NCBI GenBank assembly: GCA_937920635.1
Contig: CAKZUE010000031.1
Location: 1-44,468, forward strand
Origin: an uncultured Bryobacteraceae bacterium
GTDB lineage: Bacteria > Acidobacteriota > Terriglobia > Bryobacterales > Bryobacteraceae
DNA length: 44,468 nt
Direction: 5' to 3'
This document shows, piece after piece, positions 1-31,313 of the stretch (the stretch's first letter is position 1; each line of letters opens with the position of its first letter). A model generated the notes under the pieces. The model did not search any database. It had not been told where the DNA came from and saw nothing but the letters and a program-made list of their open reading frames with translations. The position numbers and the translations under genes were made by a program.

Positions 1-381
<381 letters not shown>

Positions 382-11585: not shown

Positions 11586-14763
<3,178 letters not shown>

Positions 14764-14767
<4 letters not shown>

Positions 14768-15945
14768 GGCCTCACCTCGACGGGACTGCCATCACGAAGT
14801 TCAGCGGGCGCCGGCGCTACGACGGTATCGCCCGCGCGCAGGCCGGTGAGCGCCTCCAGCCGTTCCCCGTGCGCCGCGCCGGTGGTCACCAGGCGCGCCC
14901 GGGCCACGCCGTTTTCGATCACGTACACCTGCTCCACCTGCCCCTTCCTGACGATTGCGGAAGCGGGCACGAGCAGCGCCTGCTTCTCGCCCATCCGGAA
15001 CCGCGCCCGCCCGAACATCCCGCTGCGCAGCAGCGCTCCGGCCACTCCGATTTTGACTGTGAAGGAGCGCGAGCCCGGATCCATCGCCGGCACGATCTCT
15101 TCCACCCGCCCCTGCTGCGGCGCGCCCAGCGCGTCGAGGACCACCTCCACTGCCATGCCGGGCCGGATTTTGCCGATCCTGTTCTCCTCGACGGCCGCCT
15201 CCAGCCGGTAGCCGCCGTCGCGTTCGATCACCGCAATCGGCATGCCCGGCGAGGCCAGCATTCCCGGCTCCGCCTTTCGCTCGACGACGATGCCGCGGAA
15301 CGGCGCGGTGATCTCCATGTAGCCCTTCATCGCCGCCGCCTGCGCCACCGCCGATTCCGCCTGCCGGATCTTCTGCTCAAGCTGCGCCTTTTTCGCCAGC
15401 GCCATCTCGTGGTTGGCCCGCGCCATGCGCAGCCGCGCTTCGGCTTCATCGAATTCCTGCTGCGTGATCGACTTCTGGTCGTAGAGCGACTTCATCCGGC
15501 GGTGGGTGGCTTCAGCCAGCTCCAGTTGCGCCTTCGCCGCCGCAATGGCGCTCTCCACTTCCGGCAGGGCGCTGCGCGCTTCCTCCCGCGCCGCTTCGGC
15601 CTGCTTCAGCCCGCTGTCGATCTCGCGGGCTTCGATCACGGCGATCACCTGCCCGGGCTGCACCATGTCGCCCGCCTGCACGCGCACGTCGCGCAGGTAG
15701 CCCATCACGCGGGCCGACAGGACGCTCGAGACCCGCGCCCGCACCGTGCCCGTGGCCTCATAGATCTCCGGCACGGTCTCTTCGGCCAGCTTCACCGCAG
15801 CCACCCTCACCGCGGGCAGCGCTTCCGCCTTCTTTGGGGCTTCCTTCCCGCCGCCGCAGCCGGCCAGGCCCGCGGCGGCCATCAGCACCATGACGCCGGT
15901 TGTACCGGCCAGCTTTCCTTTAGTCGAGAACATTCGAATCTCCAT
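14764..15945 (-). CDS. RND periplasmic adaptor (membrane-fusion lipoprotein)
   Basis: Adaptor of 393 residues linking the RND pump to the outer-membrane channel. The N terminus carries a lipoprotein signal ending LAGC-GGGKE, so it is probably lipid-anchored. The order follows the HlyD/AcrA plan: a biotinyl-lipoyl half ([34 protein letters not shown]), a long alpha-hairpin of about 100 residues ([20 protein letters not shown] onward), the second lipoyl half ([17 protein letters not shown]), and beta-barrel and membrane-proximal domains. The gene overlaps the tolC-like gene by 26 bases, or by 14 if ATG at 15933 is used. Confidence 0.92.
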
Positions 15946-17236: not shown

Positions 17237-17445
17237 ATTCCCCAAGATGCGGCAATTTTTGCGCCGTGACAGCCCCCCGTGCGGCTTTTGCGCGGTTGCA
17301 GGCCTGAAGGAACCCGCCCCGGCGCCTGTCACCTGCCCCCGGTTTCCGCATCCATTCGCCTGAATCGGCGAGCCTCGTACCGGCGCTCCCCGTAGCAGCG
17401 CCGGCGGCGGCGCAGCCAACGGCAGAGCGGAACTACCATAGAAGG

Positions 17446-18078
17446 GTGGCCACACCCTCGCCCCCCTCAGCCGCTGCGGCGCCGGAAGTCGAATGGGCGC
17501 GGCGTCTGCTGGAAGGCGACGCCTCGGCTTTCACCCCGTTTGTGGAGAGCATCCAGCACCGCGTCTTCCAGTACACCTGGCTCATGTGCGGCCAGCGGGA
17601 AGACGCCGAGGAGGTCGCTCAGGAAACCCTCCTCCGGGTCTTTGAGAACTTCGACCAGTTGCAGGATCCGGCGCGTGTGCGGGCGTGGGTCTTCCGGATC
17701 GCCAAGAACTTCTGCCTGATGAAGCGCCGCCGCAGCGTCTTCGCCCCGGAACGCGAGCTTTCGCTCGACGAGCTTCTCCCGGGCACCGAAGACGTCGCCC
17801 GGTCCGCCCAGCTCGAAGACCGAGGCGAGCTGCCCGAACAGCGGCTGCTGCGCGCGGAACTGAACTCCGTGCTTGAACGCGCGCTCCGCCAGCTGCCGGA
17901 CACCTACCGCTCCGTGGTCCTGCTGCGGGACATCGAAGGTTTGTCGACGGCTGAAACGGCGGAGATCCTCGATCTCAGCCAGGATGTAGTCAAGCAGAGA
18001 CTCCACCGCGGGCGGCTGGCCTTGCGCAAAAGCCTGGCCGGCTACCTGGGCGGCAATGGAGAGGTGAAGCCCAAATGA
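17446..18078 (+). CDS. ECF sigma-70 family RNA polymerase sigma factor
   Basis: Sigma factor of 210 residues. Region 2 spans about residues 25-100 (FTPFVESIQHRVFQYTWLMC, EDAEEVAQETLLRVFENF, RVRAWVFRIAKNFCL) and region 4 about 138-200 (LRQLPDTYRSVVLLRDIEGL, SQDVVKQRLHRGRLALRK). The start is GTG at 17446. TACCAT lies 6 bases upstream, so the mRNA may be leaderless. The last codon overlaps the anti-sigma start by four bases (ATGA), the usual ECF/anti-sigma coupling. Being divergent from the efflux operon, it may control it, but the sequence shows no duplicated promoter motif that proves this. Confidence 0.93.
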   Translation: MATPSPPSAAAAPEVEWARRLLEGDASAFTPFVESIQHRVFQYTWLMCGQREDAEEVAQETLLRVFENFDQLQDPARVRAWVFRIAKNFCLMKRRRSVFAPERELSLDELLPGTEDVARSAQLEDRGELPEQRLLRAELNSVLERALRQLPDTYRSVVLLRDIEGLSTAETAEILDLSQDVVKQRLHRGRLALRKSLAGYLGGNGEVKPK

Positions 18079-18428: not shown

Positions 18429-19331
18429 ATGGAAGCAAAGCAATTGCGTTATTTCCTCGCCGTGGCCCGTGCCGGCAGCTTCGTGAAAGCCGCCGAAGCG
18501 GAAGGCGTGGCGCAGCCTTCGCTATCGCAGATGATCAGGAAGCTCGAAGACAGCCTTGGCGTGCCGCTGTTCGACCGTCTGGGCCGCACGGTGCGGCTCA
18601 CCGCCCACGGCGAAGCGCTTCTGCCCCACGCCGAAGCCGTTTTGCGAGAGATCGAACAGTGCCGCCGAGCCGTGGAAGCCGGCCTGTCGCCCGAGCACGG
18701 CCGGGTTTCGCTCGGCGTCATCCCCACGCTGCTGCCTGGGGCCGCCGCACCGGCGCTGCGCGAATTTCGGGAAAAATATCCAGGCATCCACGTGGAAATC
18801 GTCGAGCAGATCACGGAAAGGCTGATTGAAAAACTCCGCCTCGGCGAGATCGACCTGGCGATGATCGCGCTGCCGTTGAAGCACCCTGAAATCGTCGTCA
18901 GCGAACTGTTCCGCGAGCCGCTCCTGGCCGCTCTGCCGGCGTCTCATGAGCTCGCCGGTGAAACCTCCATCCCGCTGTCACGGCTGAAGGGAGAAAGACT
19001 CCTGCTGCTGCGCGAGGGCCACTGCCTGCGGGAGGACGTGATCGAGGCCTGCACCCGCGCCAGGGCGGACTTCGAGACCGCTTTCGAATCCGATCAGCTC
19101 GACAGTCTGCTGGCCATGGTGGAAGCGGGCTTCGGCGTCAGCCTGGCGCCCGCCACAGCCGTCCGCCACCATGCCGGCTGCCGCTTCCTCGCGCTGGCGC
19201 CGCCTGCCGTGCGGCGGGTCGGCTACGCTCTGGCCAGCGGACACCACGCCATGCCCGCGCGCCGGACGCTCATCCAGTTCCTGAAGCGCTACCCCTGGCA
19301 CACCCTGTTCCGCGTCCCCGCGGGAGGGTGA
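18429..19331 (+). CDS. oxyR: LysR-type regulator with OxyR redox cysteines
   Basis: 300-residue LysR-family regulator. The N-terminal winged helix-turn-helix is clear (SFVKAAEAEGVAQPSLSQMI). In the effector domain the segment LREGHCLREDVIEAC places cysteines at residues 199 and 208, the same positions and local sequence (GHCLR) as the peroxide-sensing pair of E. coli OxyR. Peroxide sensing by disulfide formation is therefore well supported. ATG at 18429 fits the family start; an in-frame ATG at 18387 would add 14 unlike residues. No Shine-Dalgarno is visible. It follows the sigma/anti-sigma pair and converges on the RidA end of the multiheme operon with 12 bases between. Confidence 0.87.
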   Translation: MEAKQLRYFLAVARAGSFVKAAEAEGVAQPSLSQMIRKLEDSLGVPLFDRLGRTVRLTAHGEALLPHAEAVLREIEQCRRAVEAGLSPEHGRVSLGVIPTLLPGAAAPALREFREKYPGIHVEIVEQITERLIEKLRLGEIDLAMIALPLKHPEIVVSELFREPLLAALPASHELAGETSIPLSRLKGERLLLLREGHCLREDVIEACTRARADFETAFESDQLDSLLAMVEAGFGVSLAPATAVRHHAGCRFLALAPPAVRRVGYALASGHHAMPARRTLIQFLKRYPWHTLFRVPAGG

Positions 19332-19343
19332 GGGGACGCCGCG

Positions 19344-19838
19344 TTATTCCTCCCCAATGCCCGGCTTGCGGAAGATGGCGATCGCCTCGATCTCGACCAG
19401 CAGCTCCGGGCGGCACAGGATGGCCTGGATGCCGGTGGATGCGGGCAGCGGGTCCAGCCCCTGCTCCTGATAGAAGCGCGTGCGCTCTTCGTTGAAGGCC
19501 TCATAATCGCGTTCGATGTCGCGCAGGTAGCAGGTGGTGCGCACGATGTCCTTCCATGTGGCGCCTTCGCTTTCGAGCAGCCCCGTAATGTTTTGGAACG
19601 TGCGGCGCACCTGGGCGCGGAAATCGCCGATGTGCACGGAGCGCCCGTGCTCGTCGATGGAGGCGGTGCCGCTGATCAGCAGCACGACAATGTTGCCGAA
19701 CTCCAGCCGCAGACCGCGCGAAAAAGAGCTGGGCTTCGCGTAGCAGTAGGCTTCGTTGAGCACATTCGGATTGGAAATGGCCTTTTTCTCGATGGAAACG
19801 GCCTTTGCGGCTTCGGCCAGGGCTTCTTCAAGCCTCAT
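19344..19838 (-). CDS. RidA/YjgF/UK114-family protein
   Basis: 164-residue protein of the RidA superfamily, members of which hydrolyse reactive enamine/imine intermediates. Visible family features are a GxxVVLLISGTASID strand, FRAQVRRTFQNITGLLESEGATWKDIVRTTCYL and PASTGIQAILCRPELLVEIEAIAIF near the C terminus, with an arginine near the usual catalytic place. No signal peptide, so probably cytoplasmic, unlike all other products of this operon. The start is ATG at 19838, preceded by AGGAGG at a 10-base distance and overlapping the upstream stop (ATGA). It is the last gene of the multiheme/propeller operon. Confidence 0.88.
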   Translation of the reverse strand: MRLEEALAEAAKAVSIEKKAISNPNVLNEAYCYAKPSSFSRGLRLEFGNIVVLLISGTASIDEHGRSVHIGDFRAQVRRTFQNITGLLESEGATWKDIVRTTCYLRDIERDYEAFNEERTRFYQEQGLDPLPASTGIQAILCRPELLVEIEAIAIFRKPGIGEE

Positions 19839-20848
19839 GATGGAGAGACCTCCTCTAGAAGTACGGATGAAATCGCTCGCCTGCCGTTGGGCGCGAAGCG
19901 GGCAGCAAGTTGCTCGCGGACGGCAGAGCGGTTCGGCCCCGCTGACTGTATGCATTCTAGCAGCAGGGCTGTGGATTCATAGGCAAGCTGCACGAAGATA
20001 TCGCCGGCAGCCTGAAAACGGGCCGCTGCGGCCCGGATCAAGTCTTGGTTCATCCTGCCGAGCGAGGGCGCCAGAACGGGACGCCTGAGATGCTTCCGGC
20101 AGAAGCGGCTCCACGCCGAAGGGCCGCAAAGAACGCGCGCCCCCTGAGGGAGGAGCATGACGGCGGCGCAAAGCGCCGCTGGCGGGGCAAGGACCGCCAC
20201 CGTCTCATACGATGGCTCCGGTGGAAGGTTCGGAGGCTGGAAGTCGTGCCGCTCGGCGGGCTGGACCAGGCGGCTGAGCACACGCGCCAGTTGGCGCGAG
20301 CCGTGATCGGTAGCGGCCAGCAGGCTGTATTTGCGGCCTCCAATGCCGTCCGAAAGAGCGCGAGCCAGCAGCGAATCGCCGGGCGCCCAACTGAAGATCC
20401 ACGGAACAAACGCCGCGTTGGCCGTTTCGTCGGTCGAGACCGGATCGAGCAGCGGAAACAGCGCCTTGGCCGCCACCTGCTCGGCGAGGTGAGTGGAGGC
20501 GCTGTCGATGCCGCCGATGACGGCCACGGCTCGGTCCTCCATGGCCAGTTTCACCACCGCCGCCGCCCCGGCGCGCCACGGATCATCCGACCAGCGCGAG
20601 AACAGGCGGAAGGGCCTGGCGCCTTCCCCGAGCTTTGCGTTGGCGTGCTCGAGCGCGAGCTGCACGCCCATGAACACCGCGCCGCCCGTTTCATGGCGGG
20701 CATCTTCCGGCCCGAAGAAGCCGACGGGCACATAGGGCAGGGCATCGGCGCCGCGCGCTGGCACTTCGCCGGGCTGCATGGGTGCGCCGCGGCGGTCCAG
20801 GTAAGGCGCCGCAGCCTGCACAGCCAGAAAGTGCCTGCGCGTGATCAT
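19835..20848 (-). CDS. ABC-type solute-binding-like protein (Peripla_BP_6 fold), divergent
   Basis: 337 residues with a short Tat-like start (MITRRHFLAVQAAAP). Motifs such as VGFFGPEDARHETGGAVFMGVQLALEHANAK and VIGGIDSASTHLAEQVAAKALFPLLDPVST follow the branched-chain amino acid/amide-binding fold. It parallels the next gene but is shorter and more divergent, suggesting duplication. No ABC permease or ATPase genes lie nearby, so import by a dedicated ABC transporter is unlikely from this locus. Similar orphan binding proteins occur beside PQQ-dependent dehydrogenases and c-type cytochromes, which this context recalls. It starts 4 bases after the upstream stop. Confidence 0.72.
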   Translation of the reverse strand: MITRRHFLAVQAAAPYLDRRGAPMQPGEVPARGADALPYVPVGFFGPEDARHETGGAVFMGVQLALEHANAKLGEGARPFRLFSRWSDDPWRAGAAAVVKLAMEDRAVAVIGGIDSASTHLAEQVAAKALFPLLDPVSTDETANAAFVPWIFSWAPGDSLLARALSDGIGGRKYSLLAATDHGSRQLARVLSRLVQPAERHDFQPPNLPPEPSYETVAVLAPPAALCAAVMLLPQGARVLCGPSAWSRFCRKHLRRPVLAPSLGRMNQDLIRAAAARFQAAGDIFVQLAYESTALLLECIQSAGPNRSAVREQLAARFAPNGRRAISSVLLEEVSPS

Positions 20849-20852
20849 CGCG

Positions 20853-22328
20853 TCACTTCGTCTCCGCCTGCGTGAGCAGTTCGCGCGCCGTGCGCTCGCG
20901 CGGCGGAACATAGCCGCGCGGGATCTCGAGATCCTCGCGCGAGTAATAGCGCCAGCGGTTGTTTTCGAACCTGGCCAGATACACTTCACCGGCGTCGTCA
21001 AGCGTGGCGGAGAACGGAATGTCGCCGGTGACGCCAGGCCACGGTTTGACGCGCGTGGCGAGAATGTCGCGGATCTTGGCGCGGTTCAGTCCCGCCACCT
21101 GGATGGCCCAGATCAGCATGTTCATGCCGTCATAGGCGTGGGCGGCGTAAGTGTCCGGCTCATCGTTGAAGCGCTTGCGGAAGCGCTCGCGGAACTCGGC
21201 GTAGCGCGGATTGGGCGCATCGGGGTTCCAGGGGTAGCCGGCAATCACGCCCTCGGCATGCGCGCCGGCAAGCTGGACGAACTCTTTGGCGACGGCGCGG
21301 TCCGAAGTCAGGAACGGCTGTTTCATGCCGCGCTCGCGGATCTGCTTCAGGATGATGGCCGCCTCGCGGGCGTCGCCCCAGTGGACGATCACGTCGGGGT
21401 GGGTCTCCGCCAGGCGGTCGATCTGGAGCGAGTAATCGTCCTGCCCCAACTTATAGGCCATTTCGATCACGACGGGGCGGCCAAGGCGGCGCGCCGAGTC
21501 GCGGATCTCGCGCACGCCGAAACGACCGTAACGGTTCGAGGACCGGATGATGGCGATCCGCTTGTAATCCATCTTGCGGATCATGTAATCGACCATCAGA
21601 TAGCCCATCTGCCGGTCGTCGCCGATGCAGCGCATCGTCCATGGAATGTTGGTCTCGATGTAGGTGGGGTCGGTGTCGCCGGTGTTCATGACGACGATCT
21701 CGCCCTTCAGCGCCACGCGGATGGCGATGTGGGAGTTGGCCGAATCGATGGTGCCGAGGATGGCCCAGACGGGGTTCTTGTACAGGAAATTGACGATCTC
21801 ATTGCCGCTGGAGCCCCACAGTCCGTTGTCGTTGGTCACCACCAGCTCAAAGGGGATCTTGCGCCGCAGGTAGCCGCCTTTGGCATTGGCCTCCTCGATG
21901 GCGAGCTTGGCCCCCTGGAGCATCTTGACTCCCATCGGCTCTTCATGGCTGGCGCCGCCTGTGGCTATGCTGACGGTGCTCATGATGGGGCCGATGAAGC
22001 CGATCTTGACCGTGTTGACGTCGTCCGGCTCCGGGATGGCGCGCCCCGGGCCGTTGTACTGCATCTGTTCGAGGAAATGTTCCTTGTAAGGCTTGATCTT
22101 GCCGAAGGGCTCGTAGTCGACCGGAGTCTTTGCGTAGGACGTATCGCGCCGCAGGCGGATGTCGGGAACCTCATACGGCCCCACCGAGTTGATGCGGCGC
22201 AGCACTTCGAGCGTGTGGTCGTCCACCTCGACGCCCGGCGGCACGAGAGGCTCGCCGGCCGGAGGCTTTTTCGGCGCGTCGGACGCCATCAGCGCGGTGA
22301 ACGCCAGAAAGACGAGCAGCCGCTTCAT
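20853..22328 (-). CDS. ABC-type branched-chain amino acid-like solute-binding protein
   Basis: 491-residue secreted protein with a signal peptide (MKRLLVFLAFTALMA). After an N-terminal extension of about 100 residues comes a Peripla_BP_6 domain: VKIGFIGPIMST, GVKMLQGAKLAIEEANAKGGY, ILGTIDSANSHIA, RIAIIRSSNRYGRFGVREI, DVIVHWGDAREAAIILKQIRERG and HAYDGMNMLIWAIQVAG. The family binds small amino acids, amides or other organic ligands in the periplasm. The unusual extension may interact with neighbouring products. Its ATG overlaps the stop of the propeller gene by four bases. No cognate permease is encoded nearby. Confidence 0.85.
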   Translation of the reverse strand: MKRLLVFLAFTALMASDAPKKPPAGEPLVPPGVEVDDHTLEVLRRINSVGPYEVPDIRLRRDTSYAKTPVDYEPFGKIKPYKEHFLEQMQYNGPGRAIPEPDDVNTVKIGFIGPIMSTVSIATGGASHEEPMGVKMLQGAKLAIEEANAKGGYLRRKIPFELVVTNDNGLWGSSGNEIVNFLYKNPVWAILGTIDSANSHIAIRVALKGEIVVMNTGDTDPTYIETNIPWTMRCIGDDRQMGYLMVDYMIRKMDYKRIAIIRSSNRYGRFGVREIRDSARRLGRPVVIEMAYKLGQDDYSLQIDRLAETHPDVIVHWGDAREAAIILKQIRERGMKQPFLTSDRAVAKEFVQLAGAHAEGVIAGYPWNPDAPNPRYAEFRERFRKRFNDEPDTYAAHAYDGMNMLIWAIQVAGLNRAKIRDILATRVKPWPGVTGDIPFSATLDDAGEVYLARFENNRWRYYSREDLEIPRGYVPPRERTARELLTQAETK

Positions 22329-23479
22329 TTCTCACCCCCCTTGTTCTCCGCCAGCATGCGCGGACGCTCGCGCAGCCCGGAATAGTAGCTTTCGCCGATG
22401 CCCCAGGCCAGGCCTTTCGCGGTTCCGACGAAGACGTCGCGGCCGTCGACATCCACGGAGATGATGAAGTTGTGCGGCAGATTGAGGCCCATCTCCACGG
22501 TCTCGAGCACCGTCTTGTCGCGCGTCACCACGGCCTTGCCGGTGTCTGACTTCGGATCCCGCGTGTAGGCGACCCAGGTGTTGGTCTCGGCGTCCATGAT
22601 GGCCCCAAGGCCCTTGTCGGAGGCGAACCACGCCTCGCGCCCGCTGCGGGCGCGCAGGTTGTTGTTGAAGTCCGACGGCAGGCCCGAATCCATGTTGTAA
22701 AACGCCCGCCAGTTCCTCCCGTCGTAGCGGCACACGCCGAAGTAGGATGACACCCAGAGGACGTTGTCCACGTAATTGGCGCCGGTCGTGATCACATGGA
22801 CGATGCCGTCGTCGCGGTAGAGATCGATCTCCATCTCGCCGTCGGGGTCGAGGTAGTCCTTCCAGCGGTTGGCCTTGACGTCGTACTCGAGCACGCCGGA
22901 GCCCCACACGGCCAGGTGGACCTTGCCATCGCGGTAGTGGACGCCGTAGTTCCAGATCTCCTCCATCGGCGCGTTCTTCTCGGTGAAGATGGTCCACTCG
23001 CCGGTGACGGTGTTGTAGCGCGACGCGCCGGCGGTGGTGGCGGCCCAGACGTTGTCGTTCTCCACCGCCACGCCATACACCACGTCGTTGACGAGCCCGG
23101 AATTGAGCTGGTGCCAGTGGTCGAAGCGCCCGCCGCTCAGCCGCGCCAGCCCGCCGCCAAACAGCGCCAGCCAGACGTCTCCCGTCTTCGGATCCACGTC
23201 AATGCCGGTGACGGCGCGCCACGGCAGGCCGTCTTTCTCCGTCCAGACCTTCACCACCTTCGAGGTCTGCTTGTCGATCAGGGCCAGCCCGTTCTCCGTG
23301 CCCACCCAGATGCGGTTCCCATCGCTCTTCACGGCGAAGATGTGATCGTCGGGCAGGCCGTCCTTCACCGTGAACTGTTTCCACTTTGTGTAGATGAATG
23401 GCAGCTTTTCGGCCTCCTGCCCGGCGGCAGCGGCGGAAAAGGAGATGGCGGTTGCGATCAGAATGGCAGCGTTCTTCAT
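22325..23479 (-). CDS. Secreted Reg_prop-type beta-propeller protein
   Basis: 384 residues with a signal peptide (about 20). Repeats of the two-component-regulator propeller type are visible: FTVKDGLPDDHIFAVKSDGNRIWVGTENGLALID, EKDGLPWRAVTGIDVDPKTGDVWLALFGGGLARL, VVYGVAVENDNVWAATTAGASRYN and further weaker blades. Such propellers usually form the periplasmic sensor of hybrid kinases, but here nothing follows them, so the protein is a free periplasmic or surface propeller. It overlaps both neighbouring genes by 4 bases. A role as a binding or scaffold partner of the adjacent cytochrome is inferred from coupling only. Confidence 0.82.
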   Translation of the reverse strand: MKNAAILIATAISFSAAAAGQEAEKLPFIYTKWKQFTVKDGLPDDHIFAVKSDGNRIWVGTENGLALIDKQTSKVVKVWTEKDGLPWRAVTGIDVDPKTGDVWLALFGGGLARLSGGRFDHWHQLNSGLVNDVVYGVAVENDNVWAATTAGASRYNTVTGEWTIFTEKNAPMEEIWNYGVHYRDGKVHLAVWGSGVLEYDVKANRWKDYLDPDGEMEIDLYRDDGIVHVITTGANYVDNVLWVSSYFGVCRYDGRNWRAFYNMDSGLPSDFNNNLRARSGREAWFASDKGLGAIMDAETNTWVAYTRDPKSDTGKAVVTRDKTVLETVEMGLNLPHNFIISVDVDGRDVFVGTAKGLAWGIGESYYSGLRERPRMLAENKGGEK

Positions 23480-26277
23480 AGCGTTTTCAGAAACTCGATC
23501 AGGTCGTTCAATTGATCCTTGGTCATGTCGTTCGTGTAGCCGTGCTTGTCGTACGGGTTGTACACGGTCCAGATTTCTTCCAGCGTCCTCGCCATGCCGT
23601 TGTGCAGGTATGGCGCCGAATCGTAGATGTTGTTCAGGTGCGGGACGTCAAACAGTCCGGTGCGGTCCAGCGCCTGCCGGGTGCCAACGTCGAACCTGCG
23701 CCGCGACGTGTAATACGGCGCGGGGTGGCAGAAGACGCACCGGCCTTCGGGCGGAATGACGCGCCCGTCGTTCGTCATCGTGCGTTCGAAGATCTCCTTG
23801 CCGCGCCGCTGCGCCGGCGTGTATTGCGTGCCGGGCGTGTGGTAGCGGTTCGGCGGGCGGCGGATGGTGGTGATGTAGTAGTCCACCGCGTCGAGCTCTT
23901 CCGGCGTGAAGGGAAGATTGCGCGTAAAGAACACGGAGAGCCGGGCGCCGCACTGGCGCTTCAGGCTCGGGTTGGTGCCCTCCCACTTGAACGGCGCGGT
24001 GTCGCCGATGCCGCGCAGCGTGCGGTTGTCGACGGGCGACACGCCGATGCCGTCGGCTTCGATGTCGTAGGTGATGCCGTCGACGTGGCCGTCGGGATGG
24101 CAGGAGTGGCAGGAGAACTGGCGGCGGAACGTGATGCGGGCGTTGTGAAACAGCTTCTCGCCCCAGCGCTGCTTCGTGATCTCCTTCGGACCGTTCAGGG
24201 AGATCTTGCCCGCCGGCTCCAGCGTGGCCAGATCGATGATGCCCACGGAGTCGTCGAGGCAGTTGGCCACGTAAGCATACTTGCCATCGGGCGCAATGGC
24301 CAGCCCGCGCGGGCTGTCCTGTGTGGGGATGTGCTTCACCAGAAACTCGGCCGCCTTCCCCAGATGGTTCGGCAGCACGCGGCGGCGCTCTTCTTCCGTC
24401 GCCGTCTCAATTACGCGCAGCATCTTTGCCACGTCGAGCACCGCCACGCGGTTGGTGCCGGAGCTGGTGACCAGCGCATGCCGCCCGTCGGGCGTGATCT
24501 TGACGTCGGTCGCGTCGGCAAAGCCGAGCCCCGGCTGATCCAGCAGCAACTGATCGACCCGGCCATCGGCCCAGATCACGGCGATGCCGTTGGTGATGGT
24601 CCAGCCCTGAAGAAGCCGCGTCATCGGCACCAGGTTCTTCGTGCGGTTCATCGTGGCAATGGCGAAGCGTCCGGTGGGATGCCGGTCGATGCCCATCATG
24701 AGGTTCGTGCCCTCGACCTGCCAGCGGTCTTCCACCCGCGCCGAAGCGGCTTCGATCACGGTGAGCTCGCTCGCCAGAGGCTGCCGGAAGCCCGTCATGT
24801 TGGAGTACATGTTGGTGACCCACACGCGCGTGCCGTCCGGGCTCAGCACGAGGTCCCAGGGGCCGCGGCCCGCGGCCAGCTTTTTCTGGAAGGCGAGCGT
24901 GCGCGGATCGAAGACGTGGATGTCTTCCGAGGAAGTGTTCAGCACCAGCACATGACTGTCGCCGGGCGTCACCAGCACGCCGTGCGGCTCATCACCGGTT
25001 GAAAGCTTCTTCTCCAGCCGGCGCGTGGCGGCGTCGATCACCGACAACGAATCCTCTTCGCGGTTGCTGACAAAGGCGCGCCTGCCGTCGCTCGTGAAGG
25101 CCACGCCGGTGGGCGCGGCGCCGGAAGAAACCTCGGCAATGACGCGCCGCGTGCGCGTGTCGATAACTGCCACGGCATCGCCGGCTTCCAGCGTCACCCA
25201 CAGCTCGCCCGTGCCGGGGCGGAAGGCCAGGCGCAGCGGGTTCTTGTACTTCACTTCCGCGGCGCGCGGCGGCAGCTTCGTGGGATGCGCGATCTGCTTC
25301 CAGGCCTCGGCGGCGTTGAATGGCTTGCCATGCGCCGGATTGTGGCAGCCGTTGCAGTCGTTCAGCGAAGCAGGCTTCAGGCCGGCGGCGCGCGCCGCCG
25401 CCGGGTCGCGCATGATGGCATCGGCCGCATATTTTTTGCCTGCCCCGTGGCAGGCTTCGCAGCCAACGCCTTCATCGGCATGCGGCCCGGGGGCGTGGCA
25501 TTTCAGGCACGCCTCGCTCTGCTGCGGGTCGCCGGAGACGTTCATCCCGCGCGCGAGTTCCGCCGCCCGGGGCGTGGAAAGCACCGCCCACGCGCGCGCG
25601 TGCGGGCTTCTGCGCCACACGTCGTATTGATGGCCGTGATCGGGACCGTTGTGGCACGATCCGCAGGCCGCCGTGCCAGTATAATTTCCGGACTCTTTCT
25701 CCGGCATGGCTGCCAGCCTGGAAGGCTTCGGCAGGGGATGCGCGATCTGCTTCCACGCTTCGTCGATGTCCACGGTCGGCTTGGGGAGAACGGCGACGTG
25801 CGACCCCTTCTCCATGTGGCACACCAGGCAGTTGTCTTTCGTGGGCATCCTGAGTCCGGCCAGCATGGCGGCTTTGCGGTCGCGCATCACGGACTCTGCC
25901 GCGTACTCGCTGCCCGGCCCGTGGCAGCCCTCGCATTGCAAGCCATCTTCGCGCCGGAAGGTCTCGCGGTCCACTTCGCGCTCGTCGGCGTTATACGCCG
26001 TGGAATGGCAGCCGAGGCAGATGGCGGCTTCCCAGGGCGCCTCCCGCAGTCCGCTGATCCGCGCAATCTCCCACGACTCGGGCTTCGACAAAGCCGCGTA
26101 CGCCTGCGAGTGTTTCGACAACAGCCACCTGCTGTACTGGTGCCCCATGCCGGGGCCATCGTGGCAGGAGGCGCACACGCGCGAACCGACATAGACAGGC
26201 TTGGGCGGCGCGCCGCGCGACACGAACACGAGCGGCGCCAGCGCGCTTGCGGCCAGGATCCAGACGAACCGTTTCAC
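23476..26277 (-). CDS. Decaheme c-type cytochrome: two tetraheme modules + YVTN propeller + MauG-like diheme domain
   Basis: 933-residue secreted protein. The start is GTG at 26277, overlapping the upstream TGA; the frame is open further but without a signal peptide. After the signal come eight CxxCH sites in two parallel sets: C35, C87, C115, C150 and C205, C257, C273, C308 (first cysteine of each). Each set begins GPxxGHQY and ends EAWKQIAHP, so the tetraheme module is a tandem duplication, of cytochrome c554 type. A YVTN-type beta-propeller follows (about residues 345-690: VIDTRTRRVIAEVSSG, DGRRAFVSNREEDSLSVIDAA). The C-terminal part has CHSCH and CVFCH and the APYLHNGMARTLEEIW segment of diheme peroxidase/MauG proteins. 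Ten hemes are predicted. Periplasmic electron transfer coupled to oxidation or peroxide reduction is inferred. Confidence 0.87.
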   Translation of the reverse strand: MKRFVWILAASALAPLVFVSRGAPPKPVYVGSRVCASCHDGPGMGHQYSRWLLSKHSQAYAALSKPESWEIARISGLREAPWEAAICLGCHSTAYNADEREVDRETFRREDGLQCEGCHGPGSEYAAESVMRDRKAAMLAGLRMPTKDNCLVCHMEKGSHVAVLPKPTVDIDEAWKQIAHPLPKPSRLAAMPEKESGNYTGTAACGSCHNGPDHGHQYDVWRRSPHARAWAVLSTPRAAELARGMNVSGDPQQSEACLKCHAPGPHADEGVGCEACHGAGKKYAADAIMRDPAAARAAGLKPASLNDCNGCHNPAHGKPFNAAEAWKQIAHPTKLPPRAAEVKYKNPLRLAFRPGTGELWVTLEAGDAVAVIDTRTRRVIAEVSSGAAPTGVAFTSDGRRAFVSNREEDSLSVIDAATRRLEKKLSTGDEPHGVLVTPGDSHVLVLNTSSEDIHVFDPRTLAFQKKLAAGRGPWDLVLSPDGTRVWVTNMYSNMTGFRQPLASELTVIEAASARVEDRWQVEGTNLMMGIDRHPTGRFAIATMNRTKNLVPMTRLLQGWTITNGIAVIWADGRVDQLLLDQPGLGFADATDVKITPDGRHALVTSSGTNRVAVLDVAKMLRVIETATEEERRRVLPNHLGKAAEFLVKHIPTQDSPRGLAIAPDGKYAYVANCLDDSVGIIDLATLEPAGKISLNGPKEITKQRWGEKLFHNARITFRRQFSCHSCHPDGHVDGITYDIEADGIGVSPVDNRTLRGIGDTAPFKWEGTNPSLKRQCGARLSVFFTRNLPFTPEELDAVDYYITTIRRPPNRYHTPGTQYTPAQRRGKEIFERTMTNDGRVIPPEGRCVFCHPAPYYTSRRRFDVGTRQALDRTGLFDVPHLNNIYDSAPYLHNGMARTLEEIWTVYNPYDKHGYTNDMTKDQLNDLIEFLKTL

Positions 26278-27917
26278 TGCCCCTTCCTCCGCACCTCCGC
26301 CTTGTGGCGGAGCGTGAGAACCTGATTGGCTTTCACCCCGGGGAACTTCTCCACCACGCCGTCCGGCCAGCGGATCTCGACATCGCATGTCTGCGCGCCG
26401 GCGAGGCCGAAGTGCAGCCGCGGATCGTTCTGCCCAAGATAGCCGCGCACCGGATTGACGTCTTCCACCATGCGCAACCCGTTGGCCGTCACCGTCACCC
26501 GCGCGCCCACCGCGGTGCGCGAACCCGCGGGAAAATCCAGCCGCGCGTCCACCATCAGCCACGGGCGCGCGTTGCCGCCGTCGTTGCGCAGCAGCACGGG
26601 CGTGTCGTTGAGGTTGACGACCAGCAGATCCACGTCGCCGTCGTTGTCGATGTCGGCCCAGGCGGCGCCGCGCCCGACGCGCTTGGTTTCGAAATAGGCG
26701 CCCGCCTCGCGGGAGACATCTTCGAACGTGCCGTCGTGACGGTTGCGCGTCAGGCTGTCTTCCTGGACGTATTCATGGTGGGCGTGGCCGTGCACCGTGA
26801 ACAGATCCAGCCAGCCGTCGTGGTCCCAGTCGAACATCACCGAGCCCCAGCCGGCGTACTGGCCGAGCAGCGGCGACAGCCCCGCGGCGTCATTCAGGTT
26901 CTCGAACACCTTTTTCTTCGGATTGAAGACGAACAGCGATACGTATTGCAGGTTGGGCACGAACAGATCCAGCCAGCCGTCGCGGTTCACATCGCCGTAG
27001 TACGGGCCCATGGAGGCCACGCCCTGGCCATGTTCGCCGAACGCGATCTCGAGCTCCAGGCCGCTTTCCGCGAACGTGCCGTCGCCCTTGTTCAGGAAAA
27101 AATAGTTCTCCATCGCGTCGTTCGAGGTGAAGACGTCGATCCGGCCGTCGTTATTGAAGTCGGCCGCCGTGACGCTCATCGCCCGGCCGCCGGGCCGCCA
27201 CATGCCCGCTTCTTTCGTCACGTCGGTGAAGGTGCCGTCGCCGTTGTTGCGATAGAGGATGCTGGGCAGGCCCTGGTAGCTCAGGGGCCCGGGATAGCCC
27301 TGCGCCGGATAGTAGTCGCGGAACTTGCCGTCGTCATACAGCAGATAGTTGGCGACGTAAACGTCCAGCAGCCCGTCGTTGTTGTAGTCGAACCAAACGG
27401 CGTGCACCGACCAGCGCGGGTCGGCCAGGCCGGATTCCTTGGAGATATCGGTGAACGTGCCGTCCCCGTTGTTGCGGTACAGAATGTTGGGTCCGTAATT
27501 CAGCAGGTAAAGATCCATGTCGCCGTCGTTGTCGATGTCCGCCGCCGAGCAGCCCGTGCCGTACACCCTGCTGCCCACGCCCGCCTTCTCCGTCACGTCT
27601 TCAAAGCGCCCGTTGCCGAGGTTGCGGTAGAGCTTCGCCGAGAGCTTCCCGCGCAGGTCGCGGCCGTCGTTGTCGCTGACGCCTTTGGTCCAGACGCCAG
27701 TGACGAAGTAGATGTCCTGCCAGCCGTCGTTGTCAAAGTCGAAGAAACAGGCGCCCGATCCCGTGCCCTCGACGATGTTGTCCAGCTTGTGGTCGCCGAT
27801 GCTGTGTCGGAACGTGATGCCCGCCTGCGCGGTGATGTCCGTGAACACCGGGCCGCGCGTCGCCGTAGAACCCGCAAGAGCCAGCGCCGCGGCCGCCGCG
27901 GCGAGTCCCATCTTCAT
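26274..27917 (-). CDS. CRTAC1-family secreted protein (FG-GAP/VCBS repeats + ASPIC/UnbV)
   Basis: 547 residues with a signal peptide. It contains many calcium-binding-like FG-GAP/VCBS repeats of the form DxDNDGxxD (FFDFDNDGWQDIYFVTG, AADIDNDGDMDLYLLNYG, FDYNNDGLLDVYVANY, GDVNRDGWLDLFVPN, ADIDNDGDVDLLVVN), predicting a seven-bladed integrin-like propeller. The C-terminal ASPIC/UnbV domain (GARVTVTANGLRMVEDVNPVRGYLGQNDPRLHFGL, VEIRWPDG) completes the CRTAC1 arrangement. ATG at 27917 overlaps the preceding stop (ATGA). CRTAC1 proteins are abundant in Acidobacteriota and Planctomycetes; their role is unknown, with surface adhesion or scaffolding often assumed. Confidence 0.92.
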   Translation of the reverse strand: MKMGLAAAAAALALAGSTATRGPVFTDITAQAGITFRHSIGDHKLDNIVEGTGSGACFFDFDNDGWQDIYFVTGVWTKGVSDNDGRDLRGKLSAKLYRNLGNGRFEDVTEKAGVGSRVYGTGCSAADIDNDGDMDLYLLNYGPNILYRNNGDGTFTDISKESGLADPRWSVHAVWFDYNNDGLLDVYVANYLLYDDGKFRDYYPAQGYPGPLSYQGLPSILYRNNGDGTFTDVTKEAGMWRPGGRAMSVTAADFNNDGRIDVFTSNDAMENYFFLNKGDGTFAESGLELEIAFGEHGQGVASMGPYYGDVNRDGWLDLFVPNLQYVSLFVFNPKKKVFENLNDAAGLSPLLGQYAGWGSVMFDWDHDGWLDLFTVHGHAHHEYVQEDSLTRNRHDGTFEDVSREAGAYFETKRVGRGAAWADIDNDGDVDLLVVNLNDTPVLLRNDGGNARPWLMVDARLDFPAGSRTAVGARVTVTANGLRMVEDVNPVRGYLGQNDPRLHFGLAGAQTCDVEIRWPDGVVEKFPGVKANQVLTLRHKAEVRRKGQ

Positions 27918-29251
27918 CTCGAGCCTCCGTTGGTGAGGATGGCCGGCGCCGTCAGCTTTACCGGCTTCTTGATCACGGCCTTCGCCTCGCGGTTTTCCGG
28001 CGTCAGTTCGGGATCCTCGTGACAGCCGATGCAGCCCCGGTTCTCCTTCGGCCGCGCATAGACCCACGACGAGGCGCGCACCACCTGCCCGGCGCGGTCC
28101 ACGAGCTCCATCTTGAGCGGCGTGTTCGGCGGCACTTCCAGGTGGAAGGAGCCGTCATCCTCGATGCGCAGGTCGCCGATCTTCAGGGGATTGGCGGGCG
28201 AGCCGGTGAACACCCGCAGCCGCCATTCCTGGCCGGGGCGGATGCGGCCCGGCTGGTCGGTGGTGAAGACGCTCAAACAGTACAGGCGGCTCCAGCCTGC
28301 GTCCTCGATCACCACCGAGCCGCGCCCGTCCGGCTCCGGCCGCGGCAGGACTGCTTTGGCCTGCGTCGCGGCGGCCCCTGCTTTGACATAAACCGGAACT
28401 TTTGTTTTATTGGCCGGATGGAACCGGTACACGCCCGCGGGCGACTTCGCGTCCGCCTGCCACGAGACCAGCAGCCGCCCGCCGGGCAGAGCGGAAGGAG
28501 CGGAGAAAACCCCGTCGGCAGGCGCTGTGAGCGCGCGCTTCGTTTTCAGCGGGCGCGCCAGATCCACGGCTGCCAGCGTGCCCGGTCCTTCCACAAACAC
28601 AAGCCGCCCGTCCAGCGTGGCTGCCGGATCGCGCAGGCTCTCTCCGGGCACAAAGAGCGAGTAGTCCGTGCCATCGAGATTCACCGCCATCAACTGCGCG
28701 CGCGGCCCCTGCTTCGATGAGAAGACCATCATGCCGTCGGGCAGCATCGCCGGACCGGATTCTTCCCACGGAGTGAAGGTGATGCGCTGCCGGAGCGTGC
28801 CGTCCAGCTTCACCGTGTACAGGGCGCCGCCGGAGACGAACGCCGCCTGCGGCCACGGGTCGGGAATGTCCAGGCTGAAAATCCGCGATTGATAGACCGG
28901 CTGGCGGCAGTCCGTGCCCATGCGCGTGAGCTGCCGGACAGCCCCGCTGGCCAGCGTCATCTCGTAAATCTGCCACGGCTCGCCCGCGGTCTTCTTTCCC
29001 GCGAATAGGATGCGCTTCGCGTCCCAGGAGACATCGGGCTCGGCGGCAGCGAAAAAGCCCTGCGTCAGCACCCGCGCGGCGCCGCCAGGCTCCACCAGAA
29101 CCAGCCGTGGCTGCCCGCCCGCTGGCGTCTCGGTCAGGACGACGGAATAACGCGCCGCCGCCCCGGCCCCGGTCTGTCCAGCCAGCCCGGTCGCCGCGAG
29201 CAGACCCGCCACGAGCACAGCAGACCCGAAACTCCCCTTTGCATTCCGCAC
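27914..29251 (-). CDS. Secreted WD40-like propeller with one heme-c site (hydrazine-synthase-alpha-like)
   Basis: 445 residues, GTG start, signal peptide of about 25 residues. The centre is a TolB/WD40-type propeller (EPDVSWDAKRILFAGKKTAG, SGPAMLPDGMMVFSSKQGPRAQLMAVNLDGTD). Near the C terminus a beta-sandwich stretch (DGSFHLEVPPNTPLKMELVDRAG) leads to NRGCIGCHEDPELTPENR with one CxxCH (C407, C410, H411). This domain order and the WVYARPKENRGCIGCHE ending resemble the propeller-plus-heme part of hydrazine synthase alpha subunits and their many relatives in Planctomycetes and Acidobacteriota. Hydrazine synthesis itself is not implied, since no anammox genes are present. It is the first gene of the operon. 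Confidence 0.75.
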   Translation of the reverse strand: MRNAKGSFGSAVLVAGLLAATGLAGQTGAGAAARYSVVLTETPAGGQPRLVLVEPGGAARVLTQGFFAAAEPDVSWDAKRILFAGKKTAGEPWQIYEMTLASGAVRQLTRMGTDCRQPVYQSRIFSLDIPDPWPQAAFVSGGALYTVKLDGTLRQRITFTPWEESGPAMLPDGMMVFSSKQGPRAQLMAVNLDGTDYSLFVPGESLRDPAATLDGRLVFVEGPGTLAAVDLARPLKTKRALTAPADGVFSAPSALPGGRLLVSWQADAKSPAGVYRFHPANKTKVPVYVKAGAAATQAKAVLPRPEPDGRGSVVIEDAGWSRLYCLSVFTTDQPGRIRPGQEWRLRVFTGSPANPLKIGDLRIEDDGSFHLEVPPNTPLKMELVDRAGQVVRASSWVYARPKENRGCIGCHEDPELTPENREAKAVIKKPVKLTAPAILTNGGSR

Positions 29252-29259
29252 TGAGAGAC

Positions 29260-29288
29260 AGTTTATGGGGAAACAATCGCCAAACCAA
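29260..29288 (-). promoter_or_regulatory. Putative promoter of the multiheme/propeller operon
   Basis: On the minus strand TTGGTT (29283-29288) and TAAACT (29260-29265) are spaced by exactly 17 bases. The -10 ends 8 bases before the GTG start of the first operon gene, so the transcript would have a leader of about 0-3 bases. No Shine-Dalgarno is present between them. No repressor dyad is obvious around it. Confidence 0.5.
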
Positions 29289-29375
29289 TACGCGCGGAAT
29301 GCTACTCAGATTCCATTAGAAGGATTTGCGCGGCAGCGTCAGAATGCGCCACAATCCACGGCGGGCGGCTGGGGT

Positions 29376-30359
29376 TCAGTAGGCCCCGCATTCCATCAGC
29401 GCCCGCACTTCTGCCGGGTCGTTCGTCTTGCCGAGAATGACGGCCAGGCGGATCCGCGCTTTGGCGGCGTTCAGAGTGCCCGCAAACAGAACGCCGCGCT
29501 GCCGGAGGTCGTGCCCGCTGCCCTCGTAGCCGTAAATGTCGAGCACGCGCCCGTGGGCGCAGCGGGTGGCGATGACGACTGGCAGCCCGGCGTCGATGGC
29601 CCGCTGGATGGCTGGCACCGCCTGCGGAGTGACATTGCCGCGGCCGGTGCCTTCGATCACGATTCCCCGCGCGCCGTTTTCCCGGGCGAAGTCGATGAAG
29701 CGGCCGTCCGCGCCCGCGCACATCGTGACCAGATCAACACGCGTTTCGATCCGCGGCCCGTCAATCACCACCCGGTCGATCAGGCGGCGCCCGAAAATGA
29801 CGCGGTCTACATCGACCAGCCCGAGCGGACCGAAAACGGGGCTCTGGAAGGTCTCCAATTGCTGGGTGTCGGTCTTGGTAGCCTCGCTGGCGGCATGGAT
29901 CATCTGGTTCAGCACGACAAACACGCCTTGCCCGCGCGCCTGCGGACTCAGCACGGTGCGGATGGCGGCGGAGAGATTGGCCGGCCCGTCGAACCCCGGC
30001 TCGCTCACCGTGCGCATGGCCCCCACAACGGCCACCGGCTTCGGCGAGATGTGGCGCAGGTCGAGAAGATAGGCCGTCTCTTCCAGCGTGTCGGTGCCGT
30101 GCGTGACCACAGCTCCGGCCACATCTTCGCGCGCGAGTTCGCGGCGCAGAATCTCGCTGACCTCCCACATCCGCTCCAGCGTCATGTGCGGGCCGGGGTA
30201 CTGGCCGTACTCGATGACGTCGAGCTCCGCCAGCGACAGCAGCGCCGGGTCGTGCTCCAGCAGTGCCCGGGCGCCGAGAGCGGGCACGGCGGCGCCCACC
30301 GCCGGGTCGTACCGCATCCCGATGGTCCCGCCGGTGAACAGAATCAGCACGCGCGGCAT
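29376..30359 (-). CDS. L-asparaginase, type I
   Basis: 327-residue amidohydrolase converting asparagine to aspartate and ammonia. Both catalytic threonine motifs are intact: ILFTGGTIGM near the N terminus and VVTHGTDTLEETAYLL around residue 90. There is no signal peptide, which favours the cytoplasmic type I rather than the periplasmic type II. It is on the same strand as the multiheme operon but upstream of it, with 124 bases and a separate promoter between, so it is probably an independent unit. A GACAAT lies 10 bases before the ATG. Confidence 0.92.
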   Translation of the reverse strand: MPRVLILFTGGTIGMRYDPAVGAAVPALGARALLEHDPALLSLAELDVIEYGQYPGPHMTLERMWEVSEILRRELAREDVAGAVVTHGTDTLEETAYLLDLRHISPKPVAVVGAMRTVSEPGFDGPANLSAAIRTVLSPQARGQGVFVVLNQMIHAASEATKTDTQQLETFQSPVFGPLGLVDVDRVIFGRRLIDRVVIDGPRIETRVDLVTMCAGADGRFIDFARENGARGIVIEGTGRGNVTPQAVPAIQRAIDAGLPVVIATRCAHGRVLDIYGYEGSGHDLRQRGVLFAGTLNAAKARIRLAVILGKTNDPAEVRALMECGAY

Positions 30360-30758: not shown

Positions 30759-31313
30759 ATGACCTGGAGGAGACTAGTACTACTAATCCTTGCCTGTTGC
30801 GTTGCCCTGCCTGTTGGCGCCGTTCCCATCATCTACACCGCCACCCTTTTCGACGGGATCCCTGTGATTGGAACCATCAGCCAGCCGAATGGACAGCCGA
30901 GCAACCCCGTGGGCGCAGTGTATTACGCTTTCTATGCGACAGCGGGCGCTTCCGTCACGGTGACCGGGGCGCGTCTTTCTGGCCCCTACGATATGTCTTT
31001 CTGGGTGCTGCCAGGCCTTTACGCGGACACGGATGTCTTTGGCGGCAACCTCGGCGGCTCCGGGGCCTTCGGTTTCGGCGACGACCAGCTCCCTCCAAAC
31101 ATCCCCGGACCCTACGGTGATCCACAGGTCAGTTTCGTCGCGCCTTACCCTGGCTTCTACACGGTGGCTGTGACCAACTTCGCCAGCAACGGAACGCCGC
31201 CTTACCAATTCCGCTTGACGGCGACGGGAATCGCCTTGGCCGAAATTCCCGAGCCCGGCGCGTTCACGCTTGTGGGCCTGGGACTGCTTGCCCTGGCCGC
31301 CCGGCGCCGGTAG
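30759..31313 (+). CDS. PEP-CTERM sorting-domain secreted protein
   Basis: 184 residues with a signal peptide ending near VGAVP and a C-terminal IPEPGAFTLVGLGLLALAARRR: the PEP motif, a hydrophobic helix and a basic tail. This is the sorting signal recognised by exosortase, which removes the tail and passes the protein to the surface, often together with exopolysaccharide. The body is beta-rich and aromatic (VYYAFYATAGASVTVTGARLSGPYDMSFWVLPG), resembling prepeptidase-like domains. No exosortase gene is in view. The glycosylphosphotransferase at 0.9 kb may belong to the same wider export system, but this is only a guess. Confidence 0.82.
   Translation: MTWRRLVLLILACCVALPVGAVPIIYTATLFDGIPVIGTISQPNGQPSNPVGAVYYAFYATAGASVTVTGARLSGPYDMSFWVLPGLYADTDVFGGNLGGSGAFGFGDDQLPPNIPGPYGDPQVSFVAPYPGFYTVAVTNFASNGTPPYQFRLTATGIALAEIPEPGAFTLVGLGLLALAARRR

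Follow-up and report, generated by a model that had tools for sequence, protein, structure and literature searches.

The closest known systems to the locus described here are the anammox hydrazine synthase (HZS; HzsABC, PDB 5C2V) and two sets of HZS-like genes from the recent literature. Hagglund et al. 2025 (PMC12758564, December 2025) described clusters of HZS homologues in clades I-III, with a core of alpha, CRTAC1 and c554-beta-gamma and, in clade III, two binding proteins downstream; according to its text, the hosts are mainly anaerobic Planctomycetota and Desulfobacterota (a Paludibaculum is named, and Bacteroidota and Bacillus stand in a tree), and a look-up of Rid, Reg_prop, DAHP and chorismate in that text gave no match. 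In the Phycisphaerae UBA1845 (PMC10732223) an hzsA-like gene lies directly upstream of a fused hzsBC-like gene, and possible anammox was proposed for these genes; a link to Rid or DAHP synthase was not found in passages of that paper, two of whose MAGs (OFTM5 and OFTM321) supplied the contigs of our loci L091 and L092.

The locus lies in a window of 44,468 nt (the whole stretch of DNA analysed) from an uncultured Bryobacteraceae bacterium. A direct ORF check found seven intact open reading frames, all on the minus strand, spanning 29251 to 19344:

27914..29251, minus strand: g1, HZS-alpha-like subunit with a TolB-like propeller and the HZS middle domain (PF18582, 1.4e-16)
26274..27917, minus strand: g2, CRTAC1-type FG-GAP/UnbV_ASPIC propeller protein (PF13517, 1.6e-53; PF07593, 5.8e-21)
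23476..26277, minus strand: g3, two cytochrome c554 domains, an HZS-beta-like YVTN propeller and an HZS-gamma-like diheme MauG/CCP domain
25270..26277, minus strand: N-terminal part of g3, signal peptide and two c554-like tetraheme domains with eight CxxCH (PF13435, 5.4e-26, two stretches)
23479..25269, minus strand: HZS beta-gamma fusion part of g3, residues 337-933 (NCBIfam and PDB matches, alignment)
22325..23479, minus strand: g4, Reg_prop beta-propeller protein with an export-type N-terminus (PF07494, 3.6e-05)
20853..22328, minus strand: g5, Peripla_BP_6 (type I) binding protein 1 with an N-terminal extension (PF13458, 7e-44)
19835..20848, minus strand: g6, Peripla_BP_6 binding protein 2 with a Tat-like N-terminus, MITRRHF (PF13458, 1.4e-13)
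19344..19838, minus strand: g7, single-domain Rid-fold protein with chorismatase-type motifs and no signal peptide seen (PF01042, 4.5e-19)

Five of the six junctions are 4-base overlaps (ATGA or GTGA) and the g5/g6 junction is a 4-base gap; eleven CxxCH motifs are present, ten in g3 and one in g1. The initial annotation had reported the same layout and motif count, its propeller, cytochrome, binding-protein and Rid domains were recovered by Pfam and NCBIfam, and the export signals it gave to six products agree with the export-type N-termini of g1-g6 (translations read by eye). The well-spaced promoter that it placed before g1 did not reappear in a sigma-70-type scan of 19000-29700 (no site, against a mean of 1.2 in shuffled sequences), other promoters being still possible. 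An asparaginase gene (29376-30359, 124 bases upstream of g1) was considered as an eighth member of the operon and left out, because it adjoins g1 only in four congeners (L033-L036) among the 40 loci mapped. The name CRTAC1 for the g2-type protein is taken from PMC12758564. A PQQ-dependent alcohol oxidation cluster was also rejected: none of the seven genes encodes a quinoprotein, as had been noted before, and the TIGR03866 score was 106.5 (cut-off 287.3).

Profile and PDB matches place relatives of all three HZS subunits in one operon, since g1 corresponds to alpha and one half of g3 to beta plus gamma, the latter two fused as in Scalindua. The g1 protein scored 80 bits against the HZS alpha model NF052339 (cut-off 800) and matched 5c2v_A at 5.5e-18, and 5c2v was the top Foldseek match of its AlphaFold model (pLDDT 89.4; E 8.6e-27, TMq 0.76). 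Its single CxxCH occupies the heme alpha-I position and the protein stops 34 residues later, so that the alpha-II bis-His heme domain is missing; some relatives keep a C-terminal extension. For g3, earlier read as a decaheme "YVTN + MauG" protein, these domains stand, but the identity of that half as a homologue of HZS beta and gamma had been missed: it scored 188.8 bits against the beta-gamma model NF052342 (cut-off 1250), 151.4 against the NCBIfam beta model (cut-off 560) and 77.9 against the gamma model (cut-off 625), with PDB sequence matches to 5c2v_B (1.9e-36) and 5c2v_C (8.6e-18). HzsABC is the top fold match for beta as it is for alpha (5c2v_B, E 4.9e-30, TMt 0.91); the gamma chain is not among the 50 Foldseek matches listed for g3. 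L-NosZ (66 bits, cut-off 700) and NirS/NirF were set aside as identities of g3, their similarity lying in the common propeller fold and HZS beta matching better.

The likeness to the anammox enzyme extends to the CxxCH motifs of alpha-I, gamma-I and gamma-II (two in the gamma-like domain, beside the eight of the c554 part), to the distal His of gamma-II and to the Cys at gamma-165 (Cys776 in g3; Cys in 32/40 aligned proteins), the predicted third thioether Cys at gamma-I. Other catalytic positions differ. A Tyr at +4 after the CxxCH His, equivalent to alpha-Tyr591, occurs in none of 44 aligned alpha-like proteins, and PMC12758564 reports a gap there in its homologues; gamma-His144 is replaced by Trp (Trp765 in g3; 40/40 aligned), as in the clusters of that paper, which equates this residue with the Trp of CCP/MauG; and gamma-Asp168 is replaced by Arg (Arg779; 40/40), an equivalence that depends on one alignment at a position near a gap. 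Unlike HzsABC, the operon has its alpha gene first and adds c554 domains, CRTAC1, Reg_prop, binding proteins and Rid. With scores so far under the curated cut-offs, and with changes at several catalytic residues, the product is, judged by sequence, not HZS. In the same genome (98.4% complete) a search with PF13447 (HAO-type) found g3 itself as the sole match and no companion HAO/HDH-type enzyme.

The initial annotation knew of no described system with this gene set; the core with alpha, CRTAC1 and beta-gamma with c554 domains is, however, that of PMC12758564, whose clade I likewise runs downstream from alpha through CRTAC1 to c554-beta-gamma; by heme count, its clades II and III correspond to our cassette types that lack c554 and that carry one CxxCH more. 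The window departs from the clade pattern in that its alpha lacks the alpha-II domain, yet its beta-gamma is clade-I-like. The ordered gene set recurs in Acidobacteriota, Bacteroidota, Planctomycetota and Verrucomicrobiota, which is more than chance, and instead of homologues scattered over related genomes we found the order maintained in distant phyla, in line with the earlier suggestion of a conserved functional unit around a periplasmic multiheme redox complex. Among 46 well-flanked loci (of 81), HzsA was present in 43, CRTAC in 46, RegProp in 45, BP in 45 and Rid in 34 (missing from 12). A profile built for the second binding protein had taken in trimmed copies of the first. Type II cassettes carry at least one binding protein in 16/17 and two or more in 2/17; the one binding protein of about 600 aa that was checked (L109) has a single Peripla_BP_6 stretch. 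Relatives of amino-acid-binding type head the PDB list of g5, the leading match being an amino-acid binder. The cassette is also present in Maribacter polysiphoniae DSM 23514, M. arenosus CAU 1321 and Lutimonas saemankumensis. Maribacter and Lutimonas are aerobes. Differing from the hosts given in the text of PMC12758564, those found here include many Acidobacteriota and Flavobacteriaceae.

With its 164 aa, the g7 protein forms one domain and carries the motifs SGTAS, PASTG and LCRPELLVEIE. At the position that we take, from alignments and RidA numbering, to be that of the catalytic RidA Arg105, 36 of 41 aligned Rid proteins have Ser and five have Ala. In PMC4433059 this Arg separates predicted imine hydrolases from others, and Ser occurs in about 10% of RidA proteins. 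SGTAS, Cys142 and Glu149 (a Cys-x6-Glu motif) are each present in 41/41, and the Arg next to Cys142 is replaced by Trp in the Bacteroidota members (12/41). Motifs common to the cassette Rid proteins are carried by chorismatase PDB 5ag3, and in the Nat-hyg5 chorismatase Glu-325 is catalytic and Cys-318 marks the subfamily (PMC7170507). Thus g7 shares PF01042 and the conserved Glu with the RidA/YjgF imine deaminases, whereas its SGTAS and CRPELL motifs are not RidA-type; with the chorismatases FkbO and Hyg5 (5AG3, 4BPS) it shares Rid-related sequence, SGTAS, PA(S/A)TG and Cys-x6-Glu in CR..LLVEIE, whereas FkbO/Hyg5/XanB2 are two-domain chains and g7, one domain, scores far below the chorismatase cut-off (TIGR04444, 31.1 bits, cut-off 325). 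RutC (52.0) and the Rid model TIGR00004 (49.2, cut-off 106.25) scored above that model, and the cassette Rid profile likewise scored higher with RidA-type structures (57.6 bits) than with 5ag3 (40.5) or 4bps (37.5). From the motifs we infer that g7 may act on chorismate in a chorismatase-like manner.

Across the relatives, a genome-wide search had Rid in 35 of the 37 genomes that carry beta-gamma and in 10 of the remaining 84 (ten relatives with Rid and no detected beta-gamma), so that its presence tracks beta-gamma; in one Bacteroidota order (198 genomes) the four genomes with Rid lie within the six with beta-gamma. When the 27 genomes whose mapped locus has no co-directional Rid were searched, nine had multi-domain chorismatase-like proteins (for one of these, in L165, the Rid model scores above the chorismatase model, 64.2 vs 47.5) and eight had no Rid at 1e-15, genome completeness not being given. 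A multi-domain chorismatase-like protein also adjoins an alpha/beta-gamma pair in L066.

A DAHP synthase gene forms part of the cassette or adjoins it in 27/81 loci, always on the same strand and at several positions; among the additional families that recur as neighbours it ranks first (21 loci; the next family has 8, on mixed strands). Its gene overlaps HzsA by ATGA in L143, L144, L149 and L151, BP2 in L075 and BP1 in L123 and L131. The L151 protein passes the TIGR01361 cut-off, the class I operon copies fall into three lineages on the tree, and that of L123 (with a 94%-identical copy in L131) belongs to class II, non-homologous to class I. Another match also passes the cut-off in 12/20 genomes with an operon copy; in eight Bacteroidota genomes the operon copy is the sole one, and cannot therefore be counted there as extra. 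All 27 loci are contigs labelled MAG, though mis-binning does not create reading frames that overlap on a single contig. The window operon has the Rid gene and no DAHP synthase, which occurs in 1/15 type I cassettes, and among neighbour families in at least five loci no exporter or further aromatic-pathway gene was recognised. The cassette is thus larger than the published core by Reg_prop, binding proteins and Rid; neither this, nor its recurrence in the four phyla, nor the loss of the catalytic Arg and the chorismatase motifs of its Rid, nor the genome-wide tracking of beta-gamma by Rid, nor the DAHP synthase link was found in our searches of openly accessible text.

The presence of a chorismatase-like gene product beside HZS-like genes, together with a shikimate-pathway enzyme in relatives, hints that the cassette handles a small aromatic compound and not hydrazine. 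Our preferred reading, to which we give slightly less than an even chance, is a periplasmic heme oxidoreductase of HZS architecture joined to a cytosolic chorismate-to-aromatic arm (g7, with DAHP synthase in relatives). DAHP synthase would raise shikimate flux, g7 would turn chorismate toward an aromatic acid, and the product, once exported, may be bound by g5/g6. The alpha (g1) and beta-gamma (g3) proteins would form a complex on the HZS plan, with g2, g4, g5 and g6 as putative scaffold or ligand-handling parts; its heme pair (gamma-I with the MauG/CCP-like Trp, and alpha-I) would oxidise the aromatic and pass electrons via gamma-II to the c554-type wire of g3. Alternatively, the aromatic may serve the heme pair as redox partner or cofactor precursor.

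The ten hemes and c554 domains of g3, and exported products with no substrate-specific enzyme besides the heme proteins, would also suit a module for electron transfer, respiratory or extracellular, with the HZS-like part as a relay and with Rid and DAHP synthase as bystanders; electron partners do vary between cassette types, because the c554 part is lacking in types II and III. This seems unlikely, however, as most hemes are dispensable in those types and the Rid co-occurrence and the recruitment of two DAHP synthase classes are left unexplained. The Trp at gamma-144, the MbnH-family match of g3 (33.3 bits) and its weak MauG matches would suit a diheme enzyme of peroxide-using type, with a part in maturing a protein-derived cofactor or in the detoxification of peroxide or NO, an explanation we regard as rather improbable: its closest relatives are HZS beta/gamma rather than MauG or CCP, and such an enzyme alone does not account for alpha, binding proteins, Rid and DAHP synthase. 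In the scheme of the initial annotation, a small organic (amine-type) substrate is caught by the binding proteins and oxidised by the heme complex, and RidA hydrolyses the reactive imine; oxidation of a small organic substrate is possible, and the binding proteins, Rid and the amino-acid-binding match of g5 fit, but we give the whole scheme a slim chance, since Arg105 is missing in 41/41, an imine formed in the periplasm would be out of reach of a cytosolic Rid and DAHP synthase is unexplained. A cryptic synthase that forms hydrazine or another N-N bond from NO and an amine is highly improbable, despite relatives of all three subunits, the gamma-Cys165 equivalent and the retained gamma-II site, given the changes at alpha-Tyr591, gamma-His144 and gamma-Asp168 in all aligned proteins and the lack of an HAO-type protein besides g3, and the text of PMC12758564 likewise concluded against it for its clades.

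Extending the aromatic reading beyond this locus, we consider it possible, though doubtful, that the cassettes form a widespread two-compartment system, in which DAHP synthase and a compact chorismatase make a dedicated aromatic metabolite and a periplasmic heme complex of HZS architecture converts it, perhaps through nitrogen or peroxide chemistry channelled between two hemes, and that anammox HZS is an offshoot of an older aromatic-handling family. As the cassette occurs in records named as strains, genetics may be possible. The two classes of DAHP synthase and the chorismatase-like Rid give a concrete lead on the chemistry of the HZS cousins, one that would point to chorismate turnover and an aromatic ligand.

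The seven minus-strand genes between 29251 and 19344 (g1 to g7) were reported in the initial annotation as tightly joined reading frames, and all seven ORFs were found intact at the positions described, with 4 bases shared at five junctions and a 4-base spacing between the binding-protein genes g5 and g6. The eleven CxxCH motifs claimed for the operon products were likewise counted, and the promoter proposed before the first gene was not reproduced by our scan. The surroundings of the operon are as follows:

29376-30359, minus strand: asparaginase gene, type II-like, 124 bases upstream of g1 and co-directional
downstream of the operon, opposite strand: LysR gene
30759-31313, plus strand: PEP-CTERM-type protein, just past the asparaginase gene
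17446-18078, plus strand: ECF sigma factor ORF
15920-17455, minus strand: TolC-type ORF, first gene of an RND efflux operon (11582-17455)
1-381, minus strand: part of a 16S rRNA gene, covering no more than model positions 1-396
36044-36119, minus strand: tRNA-Met
38812-38885, plus strand: tRNA-Gln

The asparaginase gene is kept in the four congeners examined. The divergent ECF and TolC-type ORFs overlap at their starts by about 10 bases (from the listed start of the ECF ORF), and the contig starts inside the 16S rRNA gene, a typical assembly break.

Sequence and fold matches of g1 and g3 indicate that one operon encodes relatives of each of the three subunits of hydrazine synthase (HZS), the anammox enzyme. 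HZS beta (5c2v_B) was matched by g3 residues 345-683 (1.9e-36) and HZS gamma (5c2v_C) by residues 701-862 and 870-933 (8.6e-18); the archaeal YVTN surface-layer propeller 1l0q outscores HZS beta over parts of the g3 propeller (2.3e-50), and the HZS case therefore depends on both domains matching over their full length. Among NCBIfam families, g3 scored highest against the model for fused HZS beta and gamma (188.8 bits), and g1 matched the HZS alpha model (80 bits) and 5c2v_A (5.5e-18). The predicted structure of g1 (AlphaFold, pLDDT 89.4, built with 44 sequences) had HZS alpha as its first match (E 8.6e-27, TMq 0.76), followed by TolB (6.5e-14), and that predicted for g3 (pLDDT 83.4, with parts of the gamma region down to about 45-55) had HZS beta (E 4.9e-30, TMt 0.91); HZS gamma had no entry among the 50 structure matches listed for the g3 model.

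That g1 and g3 are true HZS was rejected, every score being far under the curated cut-offs. In the 40 g3-type proteins aligned (of 81 located), the positions of gamma-His144 and gamma-Asp168 are Trp and Arg throughout, gamma-Cys165 is conserved in 32, and the gamma-II bis-His ligand is present in 39 (one gap). Of 71 g1-type proteins located, 44 were aligned, and none of these has Tyr at +4 after the alpha-I CxxCH; the text of PMC12758564, on clusters of HZS homologues, reports for clades I-III both a gap at Tyr591 and Trp in place of gamma-His144. The alpha-II domain is missing from g1 (a C-terminal extension is retained in some relatives), and PF13447 found no HAO-type protein in the genome besides g3.

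Homologues of g3 were found in 37 of 121 relatives (1e-20), and a survey of 396 Acidobacteriota genomes gave 20 with a homologue at 1e-100, the window's own among them. A scan of genome contigs confirmed at least 521 stretches, the best 80 of which were kept; of these and the window (81 loci), 46 were well flanked (4.5 kb or more of sequence upstream of the beta-gamma ORF, and 5.5 kb or more downstream) and 35 with shorter flanks were left out of the flank counts. Counted on the same strand within 9 kb, the 46 loci hold HzsA (43), CRTAC (46), RegProp (45), Rid (34), and at least one (45) or at least two (29) binding proteins (BPs). By record title they belong to Acidobacteriota (25), Bacteroidota (14), Planctomycetota (5) and Verrucomicrobiota (2), with further partial loci, cut before alpha, in MAGs titled as 'Deltaproteobacteria' (L083) and Aminicenantes (L093). 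By CxxCH number in the beta-gamma ORF we defined type I (at least six, including the window), type II (two) and type III (three; Bacteroidota and locus L134), in agreement with the heme counts given for clades I, II and III in the text of PMC12758564. That text presents HZS homologues mainly in anaerobes, whereas cassette hosts in records not titled MAGs (Opitutaceae EW11, two Maribacter and Lutimonas; L085, L099, L101, L113) include marine Flavobacteriaceae.

In the Rid proteins aligned (41 of the 49 located that exceed 140 aa), SGTAS, Cys142 and Glu149 are invariant, the RidA Arg105 position is Ser (36) or Ala (5), and position 143 carries Arg in 29 and Trp in 12, the latter all from Bacteroidota. 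The chorismatase 5ag3 carries VSGTASV, PAATGIG and CRSDLLVEIE, and in Nat-hyg5 the catalytic Glu-325 and the subfamily residue Cys-318, as described in the text of PMC7170507, have the same spacing of seven as Cys142/Glu149. The RutC and Rid models score higher on g7 than the chorismatase model (52.0, 49.2 and 31.1 bits), the Rid profile prefers RidA-type structures to chorismatases (57.6 vs 40.5 bits), and g7 falls far under the chorismatase cut-off; we therefore name it chorismatase-like in motifs rather than a chorismatase.

Rid (E <= 1e-30) occurred in 35 of 37 beta-gamma genomes vs 10 of 84 others among the 121 relatives (Fisher 5e-19, which ignores kinship; query type and threshold differed between the Rid and beta-gamma searches, and distant forms of beta-gamma are counted in the 37). 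Among 198 genomes sampled from the same order as one Bacteroidota host (itself included), all four Rid genomes fall within the six with beta-gamma, one having the two on separate contigs. Co-directional Rid is lacking at 31 named loci, several of them truncated. Of the 27 genomes tested, all with beta-gamma, 10 have a single-domain Rid match of at least 200 bits on some contig, 9 a longer chorismatase-like ORF (379-472 codons; TIGR04444 37.8-161 bits, every one below cut-off), and 8 neither at 1e-15; on the longer ORF of L165 the Rid model outscores the chorismatase model. In L066, of a more distant beta-gamma group, an ORF of 1072 codons (11093-14308, minus strand) fuses the HZS_alpha middle domain to a C-terminal FGE-sulfatase domain, and lies between a distant homologue of beta-gamma and a gene for a chorismatase-like protein of 359 aa.

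Clustering of unlabelled neighbouring ORFs (at least 90 aa) yielded one stand-out family, at 21 loci and on the cassette strand in all (the runner-up: 8 loci, strands mixed). It is 3-deoxy-7-phosphoheptulonate (DAHP) synthase (L151 copy, TIGR01361 361.9 bits vs a cut-off of 267.75), and a direct search placed it at 25 of 81 loci. At L123 and L131 a class II enzyme (PF01474; 597 bits in L123) immediately follows a binding protein. Positions vary (before HzsA, between Rid and BP, between BPs, after the BPs, adjoining Rid), and ATGA overlaps, called with the nearest in-frame ATG as start, join DAHP synthase to HzsA at four loci, BP2 at one and BP1 at two (class II). Of 20 genomes that have an operon copy, 12 contain a further match above the cut-off; the remaining 8 all belong to Bacteroidota, and every additional match in them falls below it. 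The window's genus has no DAHP synthase at the cassette locus, and the window's own genome carries its DAHP synthase on a different contig. On the class I tree (23 operon and 20 other copies) the operon label changes four times, giving three operon lineages, of which the long row L146 forms one by itself, and placing one row from outside the operons within an operon clade (L187, G137:C57:1953-2705, a further copy in the L075 genome), which may be part of a second cassette. The DAHP-synthase label changes 12 times on the beta-gamma tree, where short-flank loci were scored as without it.

The alpha/CRTAC1/beta-gamma core is known, having been described in PMC12758564 (December 2025) and, for Phycisphaerae, in PMC10732223. 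The Reg_prop/Rid/DAHP-synthase extension was not found in the open-access texts searched or in the text of PMC12758564 and is apparently new; the system is therefore a variant on published HZS-like clusters. We infer complex formation, substrate and chemistry for the g1-g7 products: a periplasmic heme complex would follow the HZS plan, with MauG/CCP-like surroundings of gamma-I, and an aromatic derived from chorismate in the cytosol would feed or assist it. This is our best reading of the observed homology and linkage; the leading alternatives are that the system acts purely as an electron conduit or as a diheme enzyme of the peroxide type. The repeated, partly non-homologous recruitment of DAHP synthase is the strongest sign that the activity of this enzyme serves the system.
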